In this document: positions 650-16,689 of the stretch, piece after piece
Numbering within the stretch: position 1 is the first letter of the stretch
Layout of the letters: each line of letters begins with the position of its first letter
Virus record (IMG/VR): IMGVR_UViG_3300025430_000135
Location: 1-20,634 of that record
Source of the DNA: a virus
Strand: one strand, 5' to 3'
Length of the DNA stretch: 20,634 nt
Position numbers and translations under genes: made by a program
The notes under the pieces: model-generated
What the model saw: the letters and a program-made list of their open reading frames with translations, nothing else
Databases searched by the model: none
What the model was told of the DNA's origin: nothing

Positions 650-2095
650 TTACAAATCATCGCTAGGCAAATTGTTTAATAGTTCCCTTAATTTACTGCT
701 GGCAACTTCGGCCTGCACTTTAGGTGCCGGAGTACCGTTGTCTACGATTTCACCTGTGGTACTGTTAACTGTTTGTCGCTGCTTGATACTGTTGAGCAAC
801 ACACTGCCTGCACTGGCTTGTCCGTGACCATAGCCGTCTTCTTCATCCAAATCTGAAATACGCAGTGTGTCAATATTAAACTCTAGGTCAATCTTTTGAC
901 CAACTCCGCTGGAACTACGTGTTTTCATTAGCTGGATTTGATAACGTCCACGTTCACGCATTGCACGACTGGTAAAGATACCAAACACATTATCAGCTGT
1001 TTGAATCTTACTTAATCCGCCCGAGATGTGGCTGTGATCAAACTCAACTTCTTCAACAGCACCGCGATTTAGCTGTGCCGCTGTGACAAATATACAGTTC
1101 TTTTCTACAGCTAGATTACGCAATTCCTCACTGACATATTTGTCTTTGACAAACAAGTTTTCAGCACTGATACGCTTGCTCAAGGGCAACAACAAGTCCA
1201 TATAGTCTACCAGTAGTACATCAATCTTGCGCCCCATTTTGATTTCATACTCTTTCATATAAGCGCGAATATCATTGGCTGTCTTGCCGCTTGGCATATA
1301 CTTGACTTGGAATTGTCCTGATTTTTTTCCAATCATTTTGACTTTCATTTCCACGTCGTCAATGCTTTTGAAAATTTCTCTTGTGGGTATTCCAGTTACC
1401 ATAGCATCTACCCGCAAGCTAACCAGTTCTTCACTCAATTCAAGTGTCAGATACAAGACATTGTGTCCAGCTAGGCTATAGTTTACTCCAAGATTAGCCA
1501 AAAACAAACTCTTACCAGCACCACTACCGCCAGCCCATATGTTAAGCTCACCTCGATTAAATCCACCATATAGTTTATCATCGATGGCTTTCCAACCTGT
1601 GGATATTTGTCCATTTTTATCCTTAATACGCATCAATCTAGCACGGGGATCAGCAAAGTAATCAGTGCCCATGTCACGTTGTAGGCCCACTTGTACAGCC
1701 TGTTTAATTTTTTCTTCTACAGGACCATATTCACCTTTTTCCAGCAAGTCAGCTGACTCTAAGATAGCACGTTCAAGACCTTTGTGTCTAATAAATGTTT
1801 CAAAATCATTCATCAACCAATCATAGTGTTCGTCACGTAGATCTTCTGCTGCCTTGAGATTTGATCCTGTAGCTGCATTGATAATGTCTGGCGTGGGCAA
1901 TACATTATTTTCAGTTACATATTTGGTTAGAAATTCTGCAGCTGGTTGTAGTTTACGGTCAAATAGATTACTGTCAAAAATACTTTGACAGCGTACAAAC
2001 GTGCCAGCATCTGCCAACATCATTTCTAGATATACACGTTGTATGTCATATCCATAATCAACGTTTTGTCTTGCGCGGTCTTTTTTATCATTCAT
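650..2095 (-). CDS. 41: Replicative DNA helicase, T4 gp41 / DnaB type
   Basis: 481-aa hexameric 5'-3' helicase of the phage replisome that partners with primase gp61. A helical N-terminal domain (about 1-150) is followed by a RecA-like motor domain: Walker A GGSGAGKS (189-196), the DnaB H1a-like YLTLELSEE (215-223), Walker B IDVLLVDYMD (291-300), the H3-type Gln in AAQLNRG (339-345), and the KTRSSSGVG arginine-finger region (391-399). Length is close to T4 gp41 (475 aa). The ATG at 2095 lies six bases after a TATAAT and has no Shine-Dalgarno at normal distance, so the message may be leaderless. The C-terminal 70 residues are polar and low in motifs. The gene follows a carbamoyltransferase; primase lies upstream in the same direction. 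Confidence 0.95.
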   Translation of the reverse strand: MNDKKDRARQNVDYGYDIQRVYLEMMLADAGTFVRCQSIFDSNLFDRKLQPAAEFLTKYVTENNVLPTPDIINAATGSNLKAAEDLRDEHYDWLMNDFETFIRHKGLERAILESADLLEKGEYGPVEEKIKQAVQVGLQRDMGTDYFADPRARLMRIKDKNGQISTGWKAIDDKLYGGFNRGELNIWAGGSGAGKSLFLANLGVNYSLAGHNVLYLTLELSEELVSLRVDAMVTGIPTREIFKSIDDVEMKVKMIGKKSGQFQVKYMPSGKTANDIRAYMKEYEIKMGRKIDVLLVDYMDLLLPLSKRISAENLFVKDKYVSEELRNLAVEKNCIFVTAAQLNRGAVEEVEFDHSHISGGLSKIQTADNVFGIFTSRAMRERGRYQIQLMKTRSSSGVGQKIDLEFNIDTLRISDLDEEDGYGHGQASAGSVLLNSIKQRQTVNSTTGEIVDNGTPAPKVQAEVASSKLRELLNNLPSDDL

Positions 2096-2101
2096 GTGTG
2101 T

Positions 2102-2130
2102 ATTATAGTTTCTTTAAATATTAATTGCAA
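2102..2130 (-). promoter_or_regulatory. Sigma70-type promoter of helicase gene 41
   Basis: Minus strand: TTGCAA (2130-2125), a 17-nt spacer, then a perfect TATAAT (2107-2102). Six bases (ACACAC) separate the -10 from the ATG at 2095, so the predicted first transcribed base is about the A of the start codon. The -35 overlaps the last codons of the carbamoyltransferase gene. Confidence 0.6.
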
Positions 2131-3055
2131 GGTGTTTGACAGGACTCCAGTTATAATCCCATACTCTCTGTTTAGTGTGATATAGCACGGCTCCAATACT
2201 ACTACTTGGATCTCCAGGGTTAGGAAGACTCCAACGATACTTAAACATAGGTTCAACATACCGTTTATTTGCCTGACTATTCATAGCACACCCGCCCATG
2301 TAGACCAAACAGTCTGCACCTGTTAATTCTTTTGCCAAGCTCATTACCGAGCCAATTTGTACTTCAAATGCATCTTGTACTGCGGCTGCTATATCACACT
2401 GATCTTGTAAATTATTAATGGGATAAGGCCAATTTAATACCCCTCTGTGGAAATTATAATTCAAATCAACTGTGCCAGTTATGTAACTATTAACTTCTTT
2501 AAAATAGCGCCACTTGTCTCCTTGCTGGGACATTTGTTGTAACAAGTATTCATCTTTGATTGGAGTAAGTCCGCATAGTTTTGTAAATGCACTGTAAAAC
2601 AATCCCAAACTATGTGGATAACTTCTGCTCCACACTTTGGTCATTTTGCCGTGTTTTGCTTCCCATATCGTGGCGCACTCAAATTCGCCGATTGCATCAA
2701 GAACAACAATTGCACAATGATTAAACGGACTAGTATAGTACCCAGCGGCAGCATGACTAGCATGGTGAGGAGTATATGTGATAGGTGCATATTTGAATTG
2801 TGTTAAATGTCGTTTTGGTAATACAGACATATCCATAGCTGTTCTATACTGTCCAGCATATAGTTGTCTAGCTTTTTTAATCCAAGGACGCTCATACCAG
2901 AAGATTCGATCTGGTGCGCCTTGCCCTAGTGCTCGATTAAGTATGGTGCCATCTAGTAAATCTTCTGAAGAATTATCCAAAGAAAATAATTTATTATCTT
3001 TGAATACAGCTAAACTACTGCCATGATTAAGAGCGTTTATCCCCCAGAGTATCAT
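2114..3055 (-). CDS. NodU/CmcH-type carbamoyltransferase, Kae1-like domain only
   Basis: 313-aa protein matching the N-terminal Kae1/TsaD-like domain of NodU/CmcH/TobZ O-carbamoyltransferases. Visible are the opening strand with NHGSS (10-14), the metal-binding histidines in PHHASHAAAGY (96-106), an ASKHA-type VVLDAIGE (117-124), MGGCAMN (253-259) and the closing PGDPSSSIGA (280-289). In cellular family members (about 500-600 aa) a YrdC-like domain follows and makes the carbamoyl-adenylate; here the reading frame ends directly after the Kae1-like domain and the next gene is the helicase. The phage protein may therefore need a carbamoyl-adenylate from elsewhere or have another donor. The acceptor is unknown (sugar, nucleotide or DNA base). 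Its ATG overlaps the stop of a 37-aa gene (ATGA). Confidence 0.8.
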   Translation of the reverse strand: MILWGINALNHGSSLAVFKDNKLFSLDNSSEDLLDGTILNRALGQGAPDRIFWYERPWIKKARQLYAGQYRTAMDMSVLPKRHLTQFKYAPITYTPHHASHAAAGYYTSPFNHCAIVVLDAIGEFECATIWEAKHGKMTKVWSRSYPHSLGLFYSAFTKLCGLTPIKDEYLLQQMSQQGDKWRYFKEVNSYITGTVDLNYNFHRGVLNWPYPINNLQDQCDIAAAVQDAFEVQIGSVMSLAKELTGADCLVYMGGCAMNSQANKRYVEPMFKYRWSLPNPGDPSSSIGAVLYHTKQRVWDYNWSPVKHLAINI

Positions 3056-3175: not shown

Positions 3176-3589
3176 TTAAATTCTGTATGCGGTTACTATG
3201 TTATTTTCTAGTACAACACTAGTACTGTATTTTCCTTTGCCTACTCGATCATAACTCCATGTTTCTTTATACTTGGTTTTAAGTTGTTGTTGCTGAATAT
3301 ATCCAGGATATCCTTTTGACTCTAACAACATTTCTCGAGTTTGCCCAACCCAAATATCACCTAACAATATTCTGTCTGCAATGTTTTTACCAAAACGTTT
3401 AATCAAATCATTCACGTAGGCTTCGTGTTTTTTTCGTTCTTCTTCGGCAAGTCTAGCTGACTCTGCTTTTTCGTGTTCGTTATACAAGTACCATACAATA
3501 CCTATAACCGCAAAAAATCCTGCTGCCTGCCATGGAAATAAAATTATAAGAAATATTATAATACCTAATATAAATGCACCAGATTCCAT
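3176..3589 (-). CDS. Membrane-anchored protein with BamE/SmpA-like C-terminal domain
   Basis: 137 aa. Residues 5-36 hold two closely spaced hydrophobic segments split by PW (19-20), probably a hairpin or one long membrane anchor. A charged, coiled-coil-like stretch (37-60, rich in E/K/A) follows. Residues 67-137 contain ILLGDIWVGQTREM (74-87), then KGYP and a strand-rich end (KTKYKETWSYD; STSVVLENNIVTAYRI). That layout (G-x-x-x-x-G-M/Q-T-x-E-x-L...G-x-P...W-x-Y...V-x-F-x-N/D-G) resembles the SmpA/OmlA/BamE fold of bacterial outer-membrane lipoproteins. There is no lipobox cysteine. The gene starts inside the primase stop (TAATG) and so is co-translated with primase. Role unknown. Confidence 0.65.
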   Translation of the reverse strand: MESGAFILGIIIFLIILFPWQAAGFFAVIGIVWYLYNEHEKAESARLAEEERKKHEAYVNDLIKRFGKNIADRILLGDIWVGQTREMLLESKGYPGYIQQQQLKTKYKETWSYDRVGKGKYSTSVVLENNIVTAYRI

Positions 3590-4560
3590 TATACTGTATC
3601 CTTAAACCATTTTTTTGCTCGTAATTGAATTTTCAAACCGTTAGATTCCTTACTATTTACAATTAGCCATAGTGTTGCTAGACGACCAAGTTTGATTATA
3701 GCATCGTTGATATCTTTAACACTATCGGGCCAGTTAGGCATGCTAACACTCCACCCTAACTCGATTGCACGTTCAACAGTTTTAGGACCTTCATGGTCTC
3801 TATCCGGAACTAAAACTATTTCTTTACCTAATTGTTTTAACAACCAGTTTTGACTATCTTTAATCTCTGCTCCGAGTAATGCACAGCCATCAATACTTAG
3901 CGCATCAAACGGACCTTCGCTGACAATTACGAACTCACGATTGTCCTTCTGATTATCTAAATTAAAAACATAGCCAGGTTGTTGTTCGCTCAAATACTTA
4001 GGACTAGCATCTCCAATAGTTCTAGCAGTCCATCCTACAATTTCATTATTAAATAAAAATGGAATAATAAGTCTATTGCTGAATCCAACTTTAGGAGTCC
4101 AATAGAAAGGAAAATCTTCAGGGTAAATTTTTCTATTAACCATGTACTCTAGCACAGGTATAAGTTTTTCTGGAAGGTCAACTAACAAGTCTGTAATTAG
4201 TTGACTATCCATAGGTAACGCACGAACATCAAATTTTGGAATAATACTACGGATTTCTGTTGTATTATTTTCGTCTAATCTCAGTGCTTCTAGCCTTAAT
4301 TGTGCAATGATATCATCGGGGATATTTAAATCCCGCATGAATTTATTCATTTTTTGGCTAATGTGTCTACCTGGTTGCCAGCTACATTTGAATCCGCAAT
4401 TGAAACAGTGATAGCTTACAGCATCACCACCATTAACAATAAAGCCACCGCGCTGTCTCTTGTCATCACAACAGACAGCATTAAACCCAATCCAACCGCT
4501 TGGAGTATTTTTTCTCTTGCCAGGCAAGTATTGTAGTAAAGTGTCTGCAATTAGGCTCAT
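3589..4560 (-). CDS. 61: DNA primase, T4 gp61 type
   Basis: 323 aa from the ATG at 4560. It synthesises RNA primers on the lagging strand together with helicase gp41. A zinc-binding N-terminus carries cysteines at 30, 31, 52 and 55 (VCCDD and HCFNCGF). The catalytic TOPRIM domain shows SEGPFDA (214-220, E215 and D219) and VPDRDHEG (251-258, D253/D255), followed by DINDAI (283-288). Length matches T4 gp61 (342 aa). An upstream in-frame GTG at 4575 is possible, but the ATG is preferred because the extra five residues lie inside the -10 box of the promoter. The stop overlaps the next start (TAATG). Confidence 0.93.
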   Translation of the reverse strand: MSLIADTLLQYLPGKRKNTPSGWIGFNAVCCDDKRQRGGFIVNGGDAVSYHCFNCGFKCSWQPGRHISQKMNKFMRDLNIPDDIIAQLRLEALRLDENNTTEIRSIIPKFDVRALPMDSQLITDLLVDLPEKLIPVLEYMVNRKIYPEDFPFYWTPKVGFSNRLIIPFLFNNEIVGWTARTIGDASPKYLSEQQPGYVFNLDNQKDNREFVIVSEGPFDALSIDGCALLGAEIKDSQNWLLKQLGKEIVLVPDRDHEGPKTVERAIELGWSVSMPNWPDSVKDINDAIIKLGRLATLWLIVNSKESNGLKIQLRAKKWFKDTV

Positions 4561-4565
4561 GCCTA

Positions 4566-4594
4566 AGTATAACACGTTATTTGATTAAAATCAA
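4566..4594 (-). promoter_or_regulatory. Sigma70-type promoter of primase gene 61
   Basis: Minus strand: TTGATT (4594-4589), a 17-nt spacer, then TATACT (4571-4566), followed by TAGGC and the ATG at 4560. It matches 4/6 and 5/6 to consensus. The expected start point falls on or next to the start codon, and no Shine-Dalgarno sequence is placed at normal distance. It would let primase be made early, apart from the late-promoted virion gene upstream. Confidence 0.55.
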
Positions 4595-5719: not shown

Positions 5720-5727
5720 TATTTATG
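5720..5727 (-). promoter_or_regulatory. T4-type late promoter (CATAAATA) for the virion protein gene
   Basis: On the minus strand CATAAATACTATT (5727-5715) matches the extended T4 late promoter, with one mismatch in the octamer. The predicted start near 5714 gives a 14-nt leader with AAAGG 9 nt before the ATG at 5700. The box also contains, in complement, the start codon of the plus-strand gene. Confidence 0.65.
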
Positions 5728-6099
5728 GCAAAATTAAGAGACAACATTGAACAAAATCTACCATTTATTAGCGTCATCAACTATGGTGAAAACGAATACG
5801 TGGGAATTATAATAAACCAAGATCAGTTTGTAACTAGTTTCTACGATCTAAACGCCTTAAAAACACCAGAGGAAACAAAAGTATTTTTAGAAATCGGCGA
5901 AGTATGGTGGTGGGAAAGCAATCGCCAATTTCCTATTACTGTATTCTGCAGAGATGAAATACAACCCTTTAATTATGCTATTAAAACATTCAATAGCAAA
6001 GACACACGTATTATATTAGGCCCAGTAGTAAATTTAATGAATCTTACACTAAAACGTGTTAAACGAAAAAGTGTTCAGCTAGTACGTAAAGTTCGTTAA
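5725..6099 (+). CDS. Conserved phage protein of unknown function (only plus-strand gene)
   Basis: 124 aa from the ATG at 5725 (MAKLRDNIEQ). The frame is open further upstream, but only with a TTG at 5686 that has no ribosome site. The protein has a strand-rich body with a striking EVWWWESNRQFP (residues 60-71) and a very basic tail (KRVKRKSVQLVRKVR). No enzyme motif is visible. I recall similar short proteins in T4-like aquatic phages but cannot name a function. It has its own perfect late promoter, so a late (virion or assembly) role is likely. The basic tail could bind nucleic acid. Its stop overlaps the stop of the convergent DnaE-like gene, with no terminator between them. Confidence 0.75.
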   Translation: MAKLRDNIEQNLPFISVINYGENEYVGIIINQDQFVTSFYDLNALKTPEETKVFLEIGEVWWWESNRQFPITVFCRDEIQPFNYAIKTFNSKDTRIILGPVVNLMNLTLKRVKRKSVQLVRKVR

Positions 6100-6668
6100 T
6101 TAAACTCGTAGCTAATTCTTTCGCAGATTAAATTCATCTGCACTACAATTACATGTGCATACGCAATAGCATGCGCTTTCTTAAAATAATATTCGTCATT
6201 CTCTGGTTTTATCCAAATTTCCGACAGTATCGTTGTCCAATCTTTTCCTATCAAATAACGCTTGGCTGGCCGAATCATAGCTAGCACTGCTGCCAATTGT
6301 TCTATTGATGTGGGCTTGACCTGTCTCAATATAGACCCGTGCCCATTCACGTGAAAGAGTAAATCGACGAAGTCGTCTTGCTCTAGTAGATCCCATAAAG
6401 GTTCTGTCTCCATTAATTGTGTTAAGTGTTCTTTATTTTTAACACCTTCGTACACGCTGACATTTAAAAAATCTATTTTAAAATATCCGCGATCTTCGGC
6501 TGTTTTATAATCAATAGTACTTATTCCAGTTGCAGGGTTGTATGGAATGCTAGTACAATATATACCAGTGTTGTGCTTTTTAAAAGAACCGTCGAGACTA
6601 GCATCTATATGTTTTAATACAGCTAGTGCTTGAGTTCTATCAGCAAAGTCGAGGTCGATATCTGGCAT
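6096..6668 (-). CDS. Miniature DNA polymerase III alpha (DnaE/PolC)-like protein
   Basis: 190 aa reading as a condensed bacterial C-family polymerase catalytic region. It begins directly at MPDIDLDF (D3, D5, D7), equivalent to the E. coli DnaE segment holding catalytic D401/D403. Next come KHNTGIY (31-37) and GYFKIDFLNV (61-70), where D66 would be the third catalytic Asp (D555). FHVNGHGSI (105-113), LAMIRPAK (129-136) and FKKAHAIAYAH (162-172) correspond to DnaE FQ-ES-GM, RPGP and F-K-SHSAAYA. Cellular alpha subunits exceed 1000 aa; the PHP domain, about 100 residues between the Asp pair and the third Asp, the clamp-binding and OB domains are all absent. An in-frame TAA lies just upstream, so this is the true start, 2 nt after the oxygenase stop. 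Polymerase activity is unproven. Confidence 0.75.
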   Translation of the reverse strand: MPDIDLDFADRTQALAVLKHIDASLDGSFKKHNTGIYCTSIPYNPATGISTIDYKTAEDRGYFKIDFLNVSVYEGVKNKEHLTQLMETEPLWDLLEQDDFVDLLFHVNGHGSILRQVKPTSIEQLAAVLAMIRPAKRYLIGKDWTTILSEIWIKPENDEYYFKKAHAIAYAHVIVVQMNLICERISYEFN

Positions 6669-6670
6669 AG

Positions 6671-7255
6671 TTAATTAAAATTAAAAGCAATACAAATTCG
6701 TTCATCATCGATTAAGTGTCTTGGAACACAATGTCTAACATAACTTCTGAATATGACAAGACTACCGGGACTTGGTATAAAATCGTGTGTCATCACATTC
6801 ATGTAGTTAGGTATAGTAGCTGCAACAGGACACATGTCTGGCTCTAACGGGCTTTCAAAAACTAAATTAGAAGATCCTTCAGGCACCGATACATAATAAA
6901 CAGCCGAAAATGTACTACTATGGTGATGATGAAAATCTTGGAAGTCGTATTTTTTCATAATATTAATCCAAGCTTCTGTGCATACATATTTCTTTTTGTT
7001 GCGTTCTACACCTAGTATTTTGGCAAAATTGTTTACATGTCCAGTAATGGTCTCTACAATTATTTTAAAATCCATATCTTTAGAAATGTCATGTGTGCCT
7101 AATGTATTGTATGTAGGACTAATCCACATCTCGCTTCCTGATTTAGTTGTCGATTGTATGGCTTTTATTTTAGATAACAAATCGGCATTTGTTTCTTCAA
7201 TTTCAGTTATTTTATCTGTATATATTGCTGTAGGAAATAATAATTCAACACCCAT
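6671..7255 (-). CDS. 2OG-Fe(II) oxygenase-like protein (first of two)
   Basis: 194 aa. It resembles the family of short putative 2-oxoglutarate/iron oxygenases (TIGR02466-like): AWINIMKKYDFQDFHHHHSS (95-114), a double-stranded beta-helix core with FSAVYYVSVPEG (116-127), then PSPGSLVIFRSYVRHCVPRH (161-180) and ERICIAFNFN. H109/H111 occupy the first metal position as HxH rather than the classic HxD. H175 is the likely distal ligand and R186 (in DERICIAF) the likely 2OG-binding Arg. The substrate is unknown. The start overlaps the zinc-finger gene stop by one base (TAATG), and the stop is 2 nt from the DnaE-like start. Confidence 0.75.
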   Translation of the reverse strand: MGVELLFPTAIYTDKITEIEETNADLLSKIKAIQSTTKSGSEMWISPTYNTLGTHDISKDMDFKIIVETITGHVNNFAKILGVERNKKKYVCTEAWINIMKKYDFQDFHHHHSSTFSAVYYVSVPEGSSNLVFESPLEPDMCPVAATIPNYMNVMTHDFIPSPGSLVIFRSYVRHCVPRHLIDDERICIAFNFN

Positions 7256-8426: not shown

Positions 8427-8706
8427 ATTTTTCTTGACTTAGTTTATATAATATTTTAACACGATCTATAGCTTTTTGCAAGGCAGGATTGCTCTTTCCT
8501 GCTAGACGAATTTTAATCCATTCATTATGATCAGCTAATTCTTTATTGCCGATTTCCTTACGCACATCAAATCGTTTCGATTCTTCGGGATCGTAATCCC
8601 ATCCAATTGCTTTTCTAGTACTAGGGTCTGCACCAAATTCGCGAGCATACGTAACAGTACCGTTGCGCTCATAAATGTAGTTTACGCCTGGTTTAAGATT
8701 ACCCAC
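8419..8706 (-). CDS. Conserved 95-aa phage protein
   Basis: 95 aa starting from a GTG at 8706, with a good ribosome site (GAGGAA, about 8 nt upstream) placed inside the end of the oxygenase gene. The body reads NLKPGVNYIYERNGTVTYAR early and SNPALQKAIDRVKILYKLSQ at the end: a small beta unit then a helix. Proteins with this PGVxYIYER...NPALQxAxxRVxxxYxLS layout are common in T4-like aquatic phages (from memory) without known function. It overlaps the oxygenase stop by 8 nt and the next start by 8 nt. Confidence 0.75.
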   Translation of the reverse strand: MGNLKPGVNYIYERNGTVTYAREFGADPSTRKAIGWDYDPEESKRFDVRKEIGNKELADHNEWIKIRLAGKSNPALQKAIDRVKILYKLSQEKYE

Positions 8707-9337
8707 GGAACAATTCCTCTTTTGGAATTAATCTAGCATCGAACGCTAACACTGTCCGAGTACCATTGCCTTTCCAAGGATACACAGTATGTGGAATATG
8801 GCTTGGGAATACTAAAACTGTGCCCGGTGTAGGATCGTATTTCCATGTATCAGTCATGACAAACCTGTTTACATCTTTAGTTACAGGTAATCTAAATAAA
8901 ATTTGTGCATCACTCGGTTGACTGTTATCTACTAATTCTGGTGCACTGATGTATACATTCCCGCTGATATTTCCAGCAGGATGGCTATGCATTTCTTGGT
9001 AATCTCCAGGATATTGTCTAATAGTCCAAATACTAGTAACAACAATATCGCACAACTTAAGATCTTCTGCGCCGGATTGTTGAGTTACAATTTCCATATA
9101 ACCTTGACAAATACCTTTAATGTATTTGATTAACCATGTCACATCAACATCTTTATCATTAGGGAAAATTTGTACCTGATGTCCACCTCTAACACTAATA
9201 GTCGGATCTCCCGCATCATTGGCGCCATCTTGCAAGTGCATTGCATCTACTAGTGTATACATTTTACTATATTCCTGCGGAGGAACATTATCTATACAAA
9301 TTATAGTAGGTTGAAAATATGCTATCTTTAATGTCAT
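8699..9337 (-). CDS. 2OG-Fe(II) oxygenase-like protein (second of two)
   Basis: 212 aa, another member of the short putative 2OG-Fe(II) oxygenase family. Motifs are WTIRQYPGDYQEMHSHPAGN (104-123) with H117 and H119, strand SGNVYISAPE, then TPGTVLVFPSHIPHTVYPW (170-188) with distal H183, and GTRTVLAFDAR with R194 as likely 2OG ligand. The GxLxxFPSxxxHxVxP run is typical of TIGR02466-type proteins (family knowledge). It shows the same HxH arrangement as the other copy but is otherwise only distantly alike, so it is probably not a recent duplicate. It overlaps the upstream gene by ATGA. The substrate is unknown. Confidence 0.8.
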   Translation of the reverse strand: MTLKIAYFQPTIICIDNVPPQEYSKMYTLVDAMHLQDGANDAGDPTISVRGGHQVQIFPNDKDVDVTWLIKYIKGICQGYMEIVTQQSGAEDLKLCDIVVTSIWTIRQYPGDYQEMHSHPAGNISGNVYISAPELVDNSQPSDAQILFRLPVTKDVNRFVMTDTWKYDPTPGTVLVFPSHIPHTVYPWKGNGTRTVLAFDARLIPKEELFRG

Positions 9338-9846: not shown

Positions 9847-11313
9847 TTATTTTTGCCAATCCACTTTATCTAAAGTAAATGGATACTTGGCTTCCTTGTA
9901 AAATTTCTTTCTTTCTGTAAGATGGCGCTTTGCCCACTTACAAGTACTGGTTAGATCCCAGATTTGTACAAAATCCTTATCTTCTGCCTTACGGATGCCT
10001 CTGCCTATACTTTGTATAACTCTAACAAATGATTTTCCTGGTTCTAATAAAATCAAATTAAAAATACGGGGAATATTAATTCCAACCGCAGCAACACCGA
10101 ATGTTGCAACAATTACTTTATTATCGCTTGTTTTAATTTCATCATATTCTTCTTTTCTATCAGTAGTTTTGACCGCCCCTGATATAAAAACTGAATCTGG
10201 TATTTCATTTACTAAAAATTTGCCTGAATCTATTCTATTAACTAGAACTAATGTGTTGCCTGATTGTGATATTTTTTTAATTAAATTGCTGATATATATC
10301 ATCCTGTTTTCTTCAGTAACAAGATATTTTAATTCTTCTTGATATGTCTTAAACTCTGGTAAATCTATCATCTGTACTACATTAACATGGCATGCTGATA
10401 GCACACCCATTTCTTGCAATTCGTGAGCTTTAATTCCACCAACAACTGGCCCAAGACTGGCAAAAATAGGTTCTGCTTCAAAGTCTCCTTTAGGAACTGT
10501 TCCAGTTAATCCCCAACGTATAGGTGCATTACATAGATTTTGTGTAAGTAAATTTTTGAGTACATCTGCTTTTGCCATATGAACTTCGTCTACTATCACC
10601 GTTCTAACACCATCTAAAAATTCAGCTAACGATACAATATCATACTCGTGATTTTTACTTTTTTTATCTAAAATATTAAGACTTTGCCAAGTGCAGATTG
10701 TATGTGTTTTGTTTAGATCTTTTCTGTCCCCGTAGTATACACCTACATCTAGTCCTACGTTGATGAAATCTTCTTCTGTTTGTTCAACAAGACTTTTATT
10801 AGGAACAATCGTAATAGTTCTTCCATATTTTTCAGCACAATGACTTAGTGTTGCTGTAGTAATTGTTTTGCCTGCGCCTGTTGCAATTTCTTGAAGACTT
10901 TGTGTATTTTCGAAAAATCTATTAATTGCTTCGACTTGATAATCACGCAACATAATAGGTTTGCCTTCTTGTTGATGACCTTTTGGCCATACTTTACCTT
11001 GATCGGCCCAGTATGTTTCTGTTACTGGTTCAAACGATATTTTTTTAGTAGTACGCAAATCTTCTAATTCATCGATGTCTATATCCATGTCGGATAATAC
11101 CGCAAGTACTCTTTCTAATTGACTCAAGTAACCGTTACCCCCAAGTCCAAACATGCTAACTTTGCCGTCCCAACGACCTAATTTATAAGCTGGGCGATAG
11201 CGTGCCGTTGGATCTACATATTTGAATGTATTTGCTAATTTCTTTCGAGCTTCCAACGGTAAGCCTTCAAGTTTGATATTTACTTCGTCTCTAATTACTA
11301 ATTTTACAGTCAT
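9847..11313 (-). CDS. uvsW: UvsW superfamily 2 helicase
   Basis: 488 aa, equal to or slightly shorter than T4 UvsW (503 aa). UvsW unwinds branched DNA and R-loops and drives the switch from origin- to recombination-dependent replication. A small N-terminal domain (1-100) is followed by the Q-motif-like LRDYQVEAI (122-130), Walker A ATGAGKT (144-150), DEVH (242-245), motif III GLTGT (268-272), motif V ATFGVAAVGINIP (403-415) and motif VI QSIGRGIRK (434-442). All helicase motifs appear intact. Start and upstream stop overlap (ATGA), so translation is probably coupled to the unknown 396-aa gene before it. Confidence 0.93.
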   Translation of the reverse strand: MTVKLVIRDEVNIKLEGLPLEARKKLANTFKYVDPTARYRPAYKLGRWDGKVSMFGLGGNGYLSQLERVLAVLSDMDIDIDELEDLRTTKKISFEPVTETYWADQGKVWPKGHQQEGKPIMLRDYQVEAINRFFENTQSLQEIATGAGKTITTATLSHCAEKYGRTITIVPNKSLVEQTEEDFINVGLDVGVYYGDRKDLNKTHTICTWQSLNILDKKSKNHEYDIVSLAEFLDGVRTVIVDEVHMAKADVLKNLLTQNLCNAPIRWGLTGTVPKGDFEAEPIFASLGPVVGGIKAHELQEMGVLSACHVNVVQMIDLPEFKTYQEELKYLVTEENRMIYISNLIKKISQSGNTLVLVNRIDSGKFLVNEIPDSVFISGAVKTTDRKEEYDEIKTSDNKVIVATFGVAAVGINIPRIFNLILLEPGKSFVRVIQSIGRGIRKAEDKDFVQIWDLTSTCKWAKRHLTERKKFYKEAKYPFTLDKVDWQK

Positions 11314-12500
11314 ATTTTTATTCTAAGATCCATAGTAACTGGCTCGTCTGCCCACTCGACTATTAAATCGCAACAGTTAGAGTATACACTAGTTTTGCCG
11401 TGACGTAAACCCATTTTAGTATCCAAAGCAAGTACGCTCATCGGCTTCCATGCATTAGTTAAGAAAAATTTCGGTAATTTCCCGCTCATTACAACAGCTA
11501 CTTGTGTGTCGTCATCTAGTCTGTAATTATATTCTTTTTCTTTGATTAACTGATTAAAATGTTTTCCAGTCTCGTCATTGGGTAATCTAAAATATACACC
11601 AATTCGATCAAAAATTCCATTATTTTCCAGGGCTTCTGATAAAATTTGTAAATTTTCAAAATACTTGTTATTCACATAAGTGTCAAATACAACCAATAAT
11701 GGTAATCTACGTAAATTGACCAAAGACTCTATGGTATCTGAAATTGAATGAGTTTTTTTGTCCACATATACTCTGGTTTTTGACCGGTTAGCAATGTACT
11801 CTGTTAAATTTTCACCTGGATTTTTTGCATTTTCGACCAAGTACTGGTATCGCATACTTCGGTCATTGATGATATTTTGATCAATCGATGTTGACAGCCC
11901 TAAGTCATCGGTAATAGCTTTTTGAAAATTTTTATGTTCAATGTCGGTGATTAAAAATTGGTCAAAAATTTCGGTTTTCGACCATGATTTTATGGTTTTA
12001 TAGTAGTCTGTAATAGCTTCGTCAATTTCAAACTCAAACGGACTGAGAGCTTCATATAGAGCAACGATATTTTTTTCAGTCAGCTCGCATTGCCAATTTT
12101 TAGTGTTTACGTGCGAAGTAAGCCCATCTGTAGTTTTTGTCAAATTTGTCAAAATTTGACGAATTTCTTGAGAAAATGACATTTCTATAAAAAGTATGGA
12201 TTCTTGCTCTTCGTTCTTTTTAATATAAAGTTTTTTAATTTGTTCTATGTGTCTAAAAGGTTTAGACCAAGAAATATCAGATAATGTGGTTTTAATTTCT
12301 TCTGAAAAATTCTTGATTTTTTCAGAATTTTCTCGAAGAATTTTGACTAGCAATCGACTTTGATTTTCTGTGATAAAAATATGCGAATTTACAGAAGATG
12401 CAAGGCTACGTAACACTTTGCAATCTCGACCAGATATTTGGTCTTCAATGGCAGGGTTAGTTGCATTAGAAATTTTAATTAATAAGTTATCTACAGTCAT
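11310..12500 (-). CDS. Unrecognised 396-aa protein heading the UvsW operon
   Basis: 396 aa from the ATG at 12500 (MTVDNLLIKIS). A GTG 18 nt upstream is also in frame but falls inside the promoter. The N-terminal 260 residues are helical, Lys/Asn/Glu-rich and without known motifs. From about 265 an alternating alpha/beta part starts (LPLLVVFDTYVNN, IGVYFRLPNDETG, TQVAVVMSGKLPKFFLTNAW, VLALDTKMG), looking like a Rossmann/RecA-like core with no P-loop. The C-terminus has HGKTSVYSNCCDLIVEW. It could be a UvsW partner or a degenerate ATPase; I cannot name a family. Its own promoter (12510-12538) and coupling to UvsW suggest early expression and a DNA-metabolism role. Confidence 0.7.
   Translation of the reverse strand: MTVDNLLIKISNATNPAIEDQISGRDCKVLRSLASSVNSHIFITENQSRLLVKILRENSEKIKNFSEEIKTTLSDISWSKPFRHIEQIKKLYIKKNEEQESILFIEMSFSQEIRQILTNLTKTTDGLTSHVNTKNWQCELTEKNIVALYEALSPFEFEIDEAITDYYKTIKSWSKTEIFDQFLITDIEHKNFQKAITDDLGLSTSIDQNIINDRSMRYQYLVENAKNPGENLTEYIANRSKTRVYVDKKTHSISDTIESLVNLRRLPLLVVFDTYVNNKYFENLQILSEALENNGIFDRIGVYFRLPNDETGKHFNQLIKEKEYNYRLDDDTQVAVVMSGKLPKFFLTNAWKPMSVLALDTKMGLRHGKTSVYSNCCDLIVEWADEPVTMDLRIKI
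12139..12160. repeat. 22-bp perfect inverted repeat inside the 396-aa gene
   Basis: GTCAAATTT (12139-12147) and AAATTTGAC (12152-12160) are perfect inverted arms around a 4-base centre. They could fold as a hairpin in the message or be bound as a dyad. It lies in coding sequence for LTNLTKTT-type residues, so chance is possible in this AT-rich gene. Confidence 0.5.
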
Positions 12501-12509
12501 AATAAAGTA

Positions 12510-12538
12510 AGTGTACACTAACGATTGTTAAAGGTCAA
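12510..12538 (-). promoter_or_regulatory. Sigma70-type promoter of the 396-aa gene / UvsW operon
   Basis: Minus strand: TTGACC (12538-12533, 5/6), 17-nt spacer, TACACT (12515-12510, 4/6). It sits between the terminator at 12546-12581 and the ATG at 12500, exactly where a new transcription unit should begin. The expected start (about 12503) leaves almost no leader. Confidence 0.6.
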
Positions 12539-15735: not shown

Positions 15736-16689
15736 TCAACGATAGTGTACCAAATTAACAATTCTAGTCAATTCGTCATTACGGAAGCTAGTACTTTCGC
15801 CCATTGCTGCTGGCCCGGCTGGCATTTCTTGGGTTGTTTTTACCGCATTCGCTTGATTTTGAGCGTCGGCTGCCGCATATTGTGCATCGTCAGCTTTTTC
15901 AGCTTCGCTTTTTGCTGGTGCAGCTGCAGGTGCTGCCGCAGGTGCTGCCGCAGGTGCTGCCGCAGGTGCCGTCGCCATATGTCCAACTGTGTCACGCGGA
16001 CCATTATAAACTCGTTTTTGTGCCGCTTGGCCTGTCGCAGGTGCAGCATCTGGCTTGGCAAATGTAGCATCTGTTCCAAATTCAGAACCTTGTGCTGTAA
16101 CATTTGCAGGTGCGCCAGCAGGTGCCGCCGCAGGTGCAGGAGTAGGTTTTGCTTGATTAGCTGGATTTTCTAAACCACCTGTCGGAATTGCGGTTGCCGC
16201 GTTAGTAGTACCGACTGGATTCTTAGCGGCATCTCCTGTAGGAGCCGCTGGTGCCGGTGTTGCTGCTGGTGCCGTAGGTGCCGTAGGTGCCGTAGGTGCC
16301 GTAGGTGCCGTAGGTGCCGTAGTGCCAGCTGGTGCAGCCGCTGGTGCACTACCACCAAATTGTTTAATAGCCGCTTGTGTAGCTGGCCCCATGATACCAT
16401 CGGCTTTAATTTTTGCACCTTTAGCAATTAAATCTTGTTGTTGTTTCATAACAGCCGGATCTGATTTAGCTGAAGGTTTAGCCATATTAGCAGCCGCAGC
16501 ACCGCCAGCTGCTCCAGCAGCCGCCGCACCACCGAGGCCTAATGCACCACCAATTTTTCCGCCTAATGCTTTAGCACCTTGCCATAAATCACCGGCAATA
16601 CCTTCGTTTTGTTGGCTTTCAATTTCGGCTATCTTTTCTCTTAGTCCGGCAACACGAGCCGCTAATTGGTTTTCATCTATACGTTTCAT
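15736..16689 (-). CDS. Ala/Pro-rich protein with peptidoglycan-binding motif
   Basis: 317 aa. A coiled-coil-like start (1-28, ARVAGLREKIAEIESQQ) is followed by a Gly/Ala-rich hydrophobic stretch (38-68). Residues 79-112 (MKQQQDLIAKGAKIKADGIM, then GPATQAAIKQFGG) match the C-terminal part of a PG_binding_1 repeat, whose hallmark is DGxxGPxTxxAhxxF. A long linker of APT and APAA repeats and Gln/Asn-rich parts follows. The C-terminus is ESTSFRNDELTRIVNLVHYR. It starts inside the stop of the 682-aa gene (ATGA). A virion-associated or cell-wall-binding role is likely (inference); no lysozyme domain is present. Confidence 0.7.
   Translation of the reverse strand: MKRIDENQLAARVAGLREKIAEIESQQNEGIAGDLWQGAKALGGKIGGALGLGGAAAAGAAGGAAAANMAKPSAKSDPAVMKQQQDLIAKGAKIKADGIMGPATQAAIKQFGGSAPAAAPAGTTAPTAPTAPTAPTAPTAPAATPAPAAPTGDAAKNPVGTTNAATAIPTGGLENPANQAKPTPAPAAAPAGAPANVTAQGSEFGTDATFAKPDAAPATGQAAQKRVYNGPRDTVGHMATAPAAAPAAAPAAAPAAAPAKSEAEKADDAQYAAADAQNQANAVKTTQEMPAGPAAMGESTSFRNDELTRIVNLVHYR
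15926..15970. repeat. 12-bp tandem repeat (3.75 copies) in the 317-aa gene
   Basis: GCAGGTGCTGCC is repeated at 15926, 15938 and 15950 with a partial copy at 15962. It encodes the AAPA repeats of the linker. Copy number may vary by slippage. Confidence 0.9.
16271..16322. repeat. 9-bp tandem repeat (five perfect copies plus a partial) in the 317-aa gene
   Basis: GCCGTAGGT is repeated five times without change from 16271 to 16315, then a partial copy. It encodes the PTA tripeptide repeat. Perfect identity suggests recent expansion and length polymorphism. Confidence 0.95.

Follow-up and report, generated by a model that had tools for sequence, protein, structure and literature searches.

In the group 2.2 jumbo phages, Iyer et al. 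(2021) described a minimal DNA polymerase III alpha subunit split into an N-terminal protein that binds NTP and a C-terminal one that binds Mg and the template, their genes lying far apart; the split subunit was suggested to cooperate with the family-B enzyme, and the split form was read as ancestral, predating LUCA (PMC7824862). The basic idea of the split has therefore been in print, from sequence analysis, since 2021. A truncated Pol III alpha was noted in the genome paper of phage vB_PcaM_CBB, as CBB_328 (PMC5259590), and likewise in the genome paper of Atu_ph07. A literature search found no experiment or biochemical study on either half.

The DNA analyzed here (the window) is a 20,634-nucleotide IMG/VR virus record, a fragment of a viral genome. 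The gene under study is surrounded by a gp17-like terminase gene, UvsX-, UvsY- and UvsW-like genes, a gp61-like primase and a gp41-like helicase, and for this reason the window was assigned to a T4-like phage. The original prediction had placed in it a 190-aa protein resembling DnaE, and the ORF was found exactly as proposed, on the minus strand (Table 1). Its product, from here on the C-half, begins with MPDIDLDF and ends with ICERISYEFN; the preceding gene stops 2 bp before the ATG, and the 3' end overlaps a convergent gene. As in the phages of Iyer et al. (2021), the window contains a standalone C-terminal piece which starts at PDID and holds the catalytic Asp residues and partial fingers; its large relatives, like those phages, are T4-like, have a separate, distant N-terminal piece (the N-half) with the GRGS motif, and encode a family-B polymerase too. 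CBB_328 (172 aa) and the 'DNA polymerase' proteins of RaK2, 121Q, PA5oct and Atu_ph07 are full-length homologues of the C-half, 37-54% identical. On these grounds the window gene can be taken as a new member of the split minimal Pol III alpha, for which the same split had been inferred independently. What is newly specified here is where the split lies, that no intein is present, that the thumb and the R709 segment are lost, that R390 is changed to Glu and the H760 steric gate kept, and how the genes are linked to those of the replisome.

Table 1. Features of the C-half gene and its neighborhood, in window coordinates. Residue counts refer to 110 C-half homologues; locus counts include only loci with room for the neighbor, and come from related phages, which are not independent.
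Feature	Position	Strand	Remarks
C-terminal half of split minimal DNA polymerase III alpha	6096..6668	-	190 aa; PHROG 11778
PDIDLDF	6645..6665	-	D3, D5, D7 = E. coli D401, D403, D405; 110/110
K31-H32 of KHNTG	6573..6578	-	= DnaE K510-H511 of KHAGG; H32, G35 110/110
FKIDF	6468..6482	-	K64 = K553, D66 = D555 (third catalytic Asp); both 110/110
RPAK	6261..6272	-	R133-P134 = E. coli R639-P640, RP of RPGP; R133, P134, K136 110/110
FKKAHAIAY, O-helix motif	6159..6185	-	F162 = F756, H166 = H760; F162, K163, H166 110/110
Convergent small gene, PHROG 11637, function unassigned	5725..6099	+	4-bp overlap with the 3' end of the C-half
Primase, gp61-like	3589..4575	-	adjoins the C-half in 61/62 loci
DnaB-like helicase, gp41	650..2095	-	beside the C-half in 47/47 loci
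UvsW-like helicase	9847..11313	-	conserved upstream flank

Comparison with the PHROG collection assigned the C-half to its family, annotated as 'DNA polymerase', with an E-value of 4e-66, and also detected phrog_405, composed of full-length, single-chain phage DnaE proteins (E 1.4e-8). The likeness to DnaE is weak when the C-half sequence is used alone (phmmer E 0.12; Pfam finger domain 0.014, under the cut-off) and clear at the family level: a profile built on the family found M. tuberculosis DnaE1 as the top PDB match (E 7.5e-5), and profile-to-profile comparison with DnaE gave an E-value of 5.6e-6. The identity of the homologues to DnaE is only about 22-25%. An AlphaFold2 model, based on an alignment of 81 sequences from the window and IMG/VR, reached a mean pLDDT of 91.6. 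When the model was compared with the PDB by Foldseek, the first 15 matches were Pol III alpha or other members of the C family, followed by noise, and matches in a viral structure library were phage DnaE proteins; the whole-chain TM-score against Pol III is modest (0.40-0.44). The C-half gene is real, and its product is a homologue of the DnaE palm and fingers; the descent originally proposed from motifs is borne out by family, profile and structure matches alike.

Alignment of 110 C-half sequences revealed that residues D3, D5, D7, H32, G35, K64, D66, R133, P134, K136, F162, K163 and H166 are invariant. The residues numbered in the original prediction were right, D3 and D5 corresponding to D401 and D403 and D66 to D555, and so was its assignment of the RP of RPGP and of the F-K-x-H-x-x-x-Y motif; its three Asp residues turned out to be unchanged in every homologue. 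D401 and D403 are metal ligands, while D405 is an Asp typical of DnaE, replaced by Asn in PolC (PMC3919608). The invariant K136 occupies a position where DnaE has Pro. In E. coli Pol III, H760 is presumed to act as the steric gate for the sugar (PMC8485763), and its conservation in the C-half suggests the use of dNTPs.

The PHP, clamp-binding and OB parts are absent, as had been claimed, together with the thumb, the HhH and all C-terminal parts. A loss of about 100 residues had also been proposed between the first Asp pair and the third Asp. Such a gap is real, but it amounts to about 81 residues between E. coli positions 403 and 510 and corresponds to the thumb, missing between PDIDLDF and KHNTG; about 88 further residues are lost between R639 and H760, a part of the fingers which includes Q687, E688 and R709.

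That the C-half opens directly with the catalytic PDIDLDF is explained by a separate gene, which encodes the initial part of the palm. By searching whole records with PF07733 (DnaE palm), one N-half each was detected in Atu_ph07, Phosso, Paride, RaK2, SCTP-2 and two large IMG/VR contigs; one other contig gave only a weak match, located at the C-half itself, and two contigs gave none. N-halves correspond to PHROG 11127, are about 164-182 aa long and carry the motif GRGSxxxS, with G134, G136, R137, G138 and S139 unchanged in 87 of 87 sequences. They end at, or at most 2 residues from, EFL, and align with DnaE as far as FERFL (E. coli 392, Taq 454; profile E 2.6e-14), while the C-half resumes at E. 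coli 400, with PDID. The split point falls in a loop of about 7 residues, NPERVSM, which separates the GS motif, binding the nucleotide, from the DxD, binding metal, within a single active site. Modeled alone, the N-half was matched by Foldseek to C-family polymerases (Pol III alpha), and its lowest confidence, 67, falls in the GRGS stretch. A split intein was rejected, since the ends of the N-halves and the starts of the C-halves, at PDID or a few residues ahead of it, leave no intein room on either half. PHROG lengths hinted at intermediate phages split at the same site, but in six phages taken from the N-half search, JG024, 2S-4, GBK1, TJE4, Lactobacillus P1 and Stanimal, the protein is always a single-chain DnaE.

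As the window is a fragment of its genome, the evidence on the N-half comes from its relatives. Both halves were found, in one copy each, in all 16 distinct records of at least 270 kb tested, while smaller contigs contain one or both, as expected of fragments. In the complete, 141-kb genome of phage Slickus01 the two genes, again single-copy, lie 11 kb apart; elsewhere the distance ranges from about 33 to 220 kb. A family-B polymerase (PolB, PF00136) was detected in 11 of 11 large relatives, at a locus outside the stretch spanned by the window, in agreement with the T4-like setting and the co-existing replicase originally assumed. A DnaQ-like exonuclease (PF00929) is above the cut-off in only 6 of the 11: RaK2-like phages and Paride have one, the nearest large relatives of the window (G001 and G002) do not, and a common partner exonuclease for the split pair was therefore rejected.

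Kept and lost residues were evaluated against seven single-chain DnaE proteins, a few of the kept ones being only nearly invariant. In E. coli numbering, the N-half part of the pair keeps R324, E328, G359, R362, G363, S364, L386 and F391, and the C-half part keeps D401, D403, D405, H511, G514, K553, D555, F756, H760 and Y764. Two residues invariant in the seven single-chain proteins are lost: R390 is Glu in 84 of 87 N-halves, and the segment containing R709 is deleted from the C-half. By this residue map, the split pair has retained the apparatus for chemistry and lost those for gripping DNA and for processivity.

Full-length homologues of the C-half were found in jumbo phages infecting Agrobacterium, Sinorhizobium, Pseudomonas, Salicola, Vibrio, Xanthomonas or one of many enterobacteria, as well as in the smaller Slickus01, thus spanning phages of alpha- and gammaproteobacteria. 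Relatives are present in at least 347 IMG/VR stretches, and the best 80 of these are all intact, standalone ORFs. A viral-contig scan with the SCTP-2 homologue gave no match. A scan of genome contigs for cellular homologues detected three good matches (56-59% identity) on small MAG contigs labeled Natrialbaceae, Rickettsiales and Pacearchaeota (L206, L207, L208), most likely phage DNA misbinned with cellular genomes, and three more weak ones (26-28% identity). Against near relatives, the median dN/dS of the C-half is 0.078 (38 unsaturated pairs of 79): the gene is under strong purifying selection.

The genomic context of the two genes was also compared. In the inspected homologue records the order is uvsW, then, further on, the C-half, the convergent gene, a structural gene, gp61 and gp41, and this arrangement around the C-half is also found in RaK2, Paride, Atu_ph07, Phosso and SCTP-2; the order around the N-half recurs in RaK2, Paride and Atu_ph07. 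Among loci with room, which belong to related phages and are not independent, the clamp loader gene gp44 follows the N-half in 63 of 63, and the PHROG 11637 gene, always convergent with the C-half and overlapping or nearly touching its 3' end, is present in 100 of 102. The latter may be regarded as a conserved neighbor of the C-half, which does not imply a role in the enzyme.

What was computed is the homology of the halves, their split point and co-occurrence, the conservation of their residues and the linkage of their genes; dimerization, activity as a polymerase and the exact task are inferred. The C-half is probably the metal-binding, template-side subunit of a two-subunit, thumbless nucleotidyltransferase of DnaE type, completed by the N-half and adding dNMPs beside the family-B polymerase. 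The N-half, of about 170 aa and encoded 11-220 kb away, would bring the first part of the palm and the GRGS nucleotide-binding motif; the two proteins most likely associate without covalent link to form a Pol-beta-like active site, which would use dNTPs at the T4-type replisome. Joint work of the halves is supported by the constraint on both genes, their co-occurrence and their linkage to replisome genes. Likely tasks would be short syntheses, for example in gap filling, in repair or in handing over primers. With the thumb and the clamp-binding, OB and PHP parts missing, the pair is unlikely to replicate processively, and the absence of the thumb makes its grip on a primer-template doubtful. 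The wider proposition, that a large T4-like group maintains a polymerase cut through its own active site, whose freely encoded, thumbless subunits are tied to the clamp-loader and helicase-primase clusters and have a distinct job beside the family-B replicase, such as gap filling or lagging-strand or end synthesis, is put forward tentatively, as somewhat less likely to hold than to fail.

The main rival accepts an active enzyme made of two halves, and sees in it a non-template nucleotidyltransferase, with DNA ends, proteins or small molecules as acceptors, like minimal enzymes of Pol-beta fold. Metal and nucleotide residues left intact, while the thumb and the R709 segment of the fingers are missing and R390 is replaced by Glu, speak for this reading. 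Against it stand the conservation of the O-helix FKKxHAxxY, in which H760 is the steric-gate His, and of the RP motif in the fingers, and the location of both genes in replisome clusters, beside gp44 and gp41/gp61; it is considered unlikely. The other possibilities raised at the start, a lone mini-polymerase and a decoy, are less likely still. That the 190-aa C-half alone could be a minimal polymerase or nucleotidyltransferase finds some encouragement in its three catalytic Asp residues and in the confident fold predicted for it by itself. Yet the part of the palm with the GS motif, where GRGS is invariant, is supplied by a separate gene in every large genome with a C-half, and self-sufficiency was rejected on the basis of this co-occurrence, as very improbable.

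Equally improbable is that the C-half acts as a decoy or inhibitor, binding host Pol III or its partners. The protein does resemble part of the host alpha subunit, and interference with host replication is common among phages, but it lacks the parts of alpha which bind the clamp, tau and epsilon, its homologues, from phages whose hosts are distant, have the low identity to DnaE given above, and both halves keep, under strong purifying selection, every metal- and nucleotide-binding residue, for which a decoy would have no need; catalytic conservation and dN/dS led to the rejection of this proposal. Decay of a captured host dnaE, which would account for the absence of large parts of alpha, is contradicted already by a dN/dS of about 0.08, by invariant catalytic residues, by conserved length and place, and by the grouping of the split proteins in one clade apart from single-chain DnaEs with 100/100 support, and can be practically dismissed.

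A two-subunit DnaE-type enzyme may be set against the known C-family polymerases. With bacterial DnaE the pair has in common the palm and fingers motifs, including D401/D403/D405/D555, K553, H511, G514, F756, H760 and Y764, but its chain is broken inside the palm and it has no PHP, thumb, HhH, clamp-binding or OB part; the C-half keeps D401/D403/D555 and D405, and at 190 aa is not a single multidomain chain. PolC differs by an Asn at the position of the invariant D7, and by an exonuclease domain, absent from the 190-aa C-half. Cyanobacterial split DnaE is likewise encoded by two genes, with another break point, and the phage halves, unlike it, have no intein. A tree including seven split pairs placed them in one clade on a long stem, fully supported; being unrooted and built without PolC or an outgroup, it favors neither the ancestral, pre-LUCA reading of Iyer et al. 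nor a derived split through later loss.

If the halves form an active enzyme, no smaller working core of a bacterial-type replicase would be known, and the cut in it would separate the nucleotide-binding from the metal-binding part of one active site. Such an enzyme would show the minimum need of a C-family palm, and why phages provided with a full family-B replicase retain another polymerase unrelated to it. The split point and the residue map are precise enough to make an experimental test simple.

Other genes were observed around the two loci. In 82 of 83 loci, the gene that comes next downstream of the N-half looks like a GroES-type co-chaperonin, named by eye (e.g. L096, 4762-5106, plus strand); in many loci a MazG-like gene follows it, before gp44. 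In the window, the interval from uvsW to the C-half contains two putative 2OG-Fe(II) oxygenase genes (6671-7255 and 8699-9337, minus strand; PF13759, phrog_81), variable passengers present in 25 and 55 of 111 loci, respectively. Between primase and helicase, a gene at 2114-3055 (minus strand) encodes a 313-aa protein with a carbamoyltransferase N-terminal domain (PF02543) and no obvious C-terminal one. A 402-aa protein, encoded between uvsW and uvsY (11310-12518, minus strand), has almost no family match (phrog_12611, E 0.0026). Near the structural genes, the product of 15736-16689 (minus strand, 317 aa) has a high content of Ala, Pro and Thr, with runs such as TAPTAPTAP and APAAAPAAAP.
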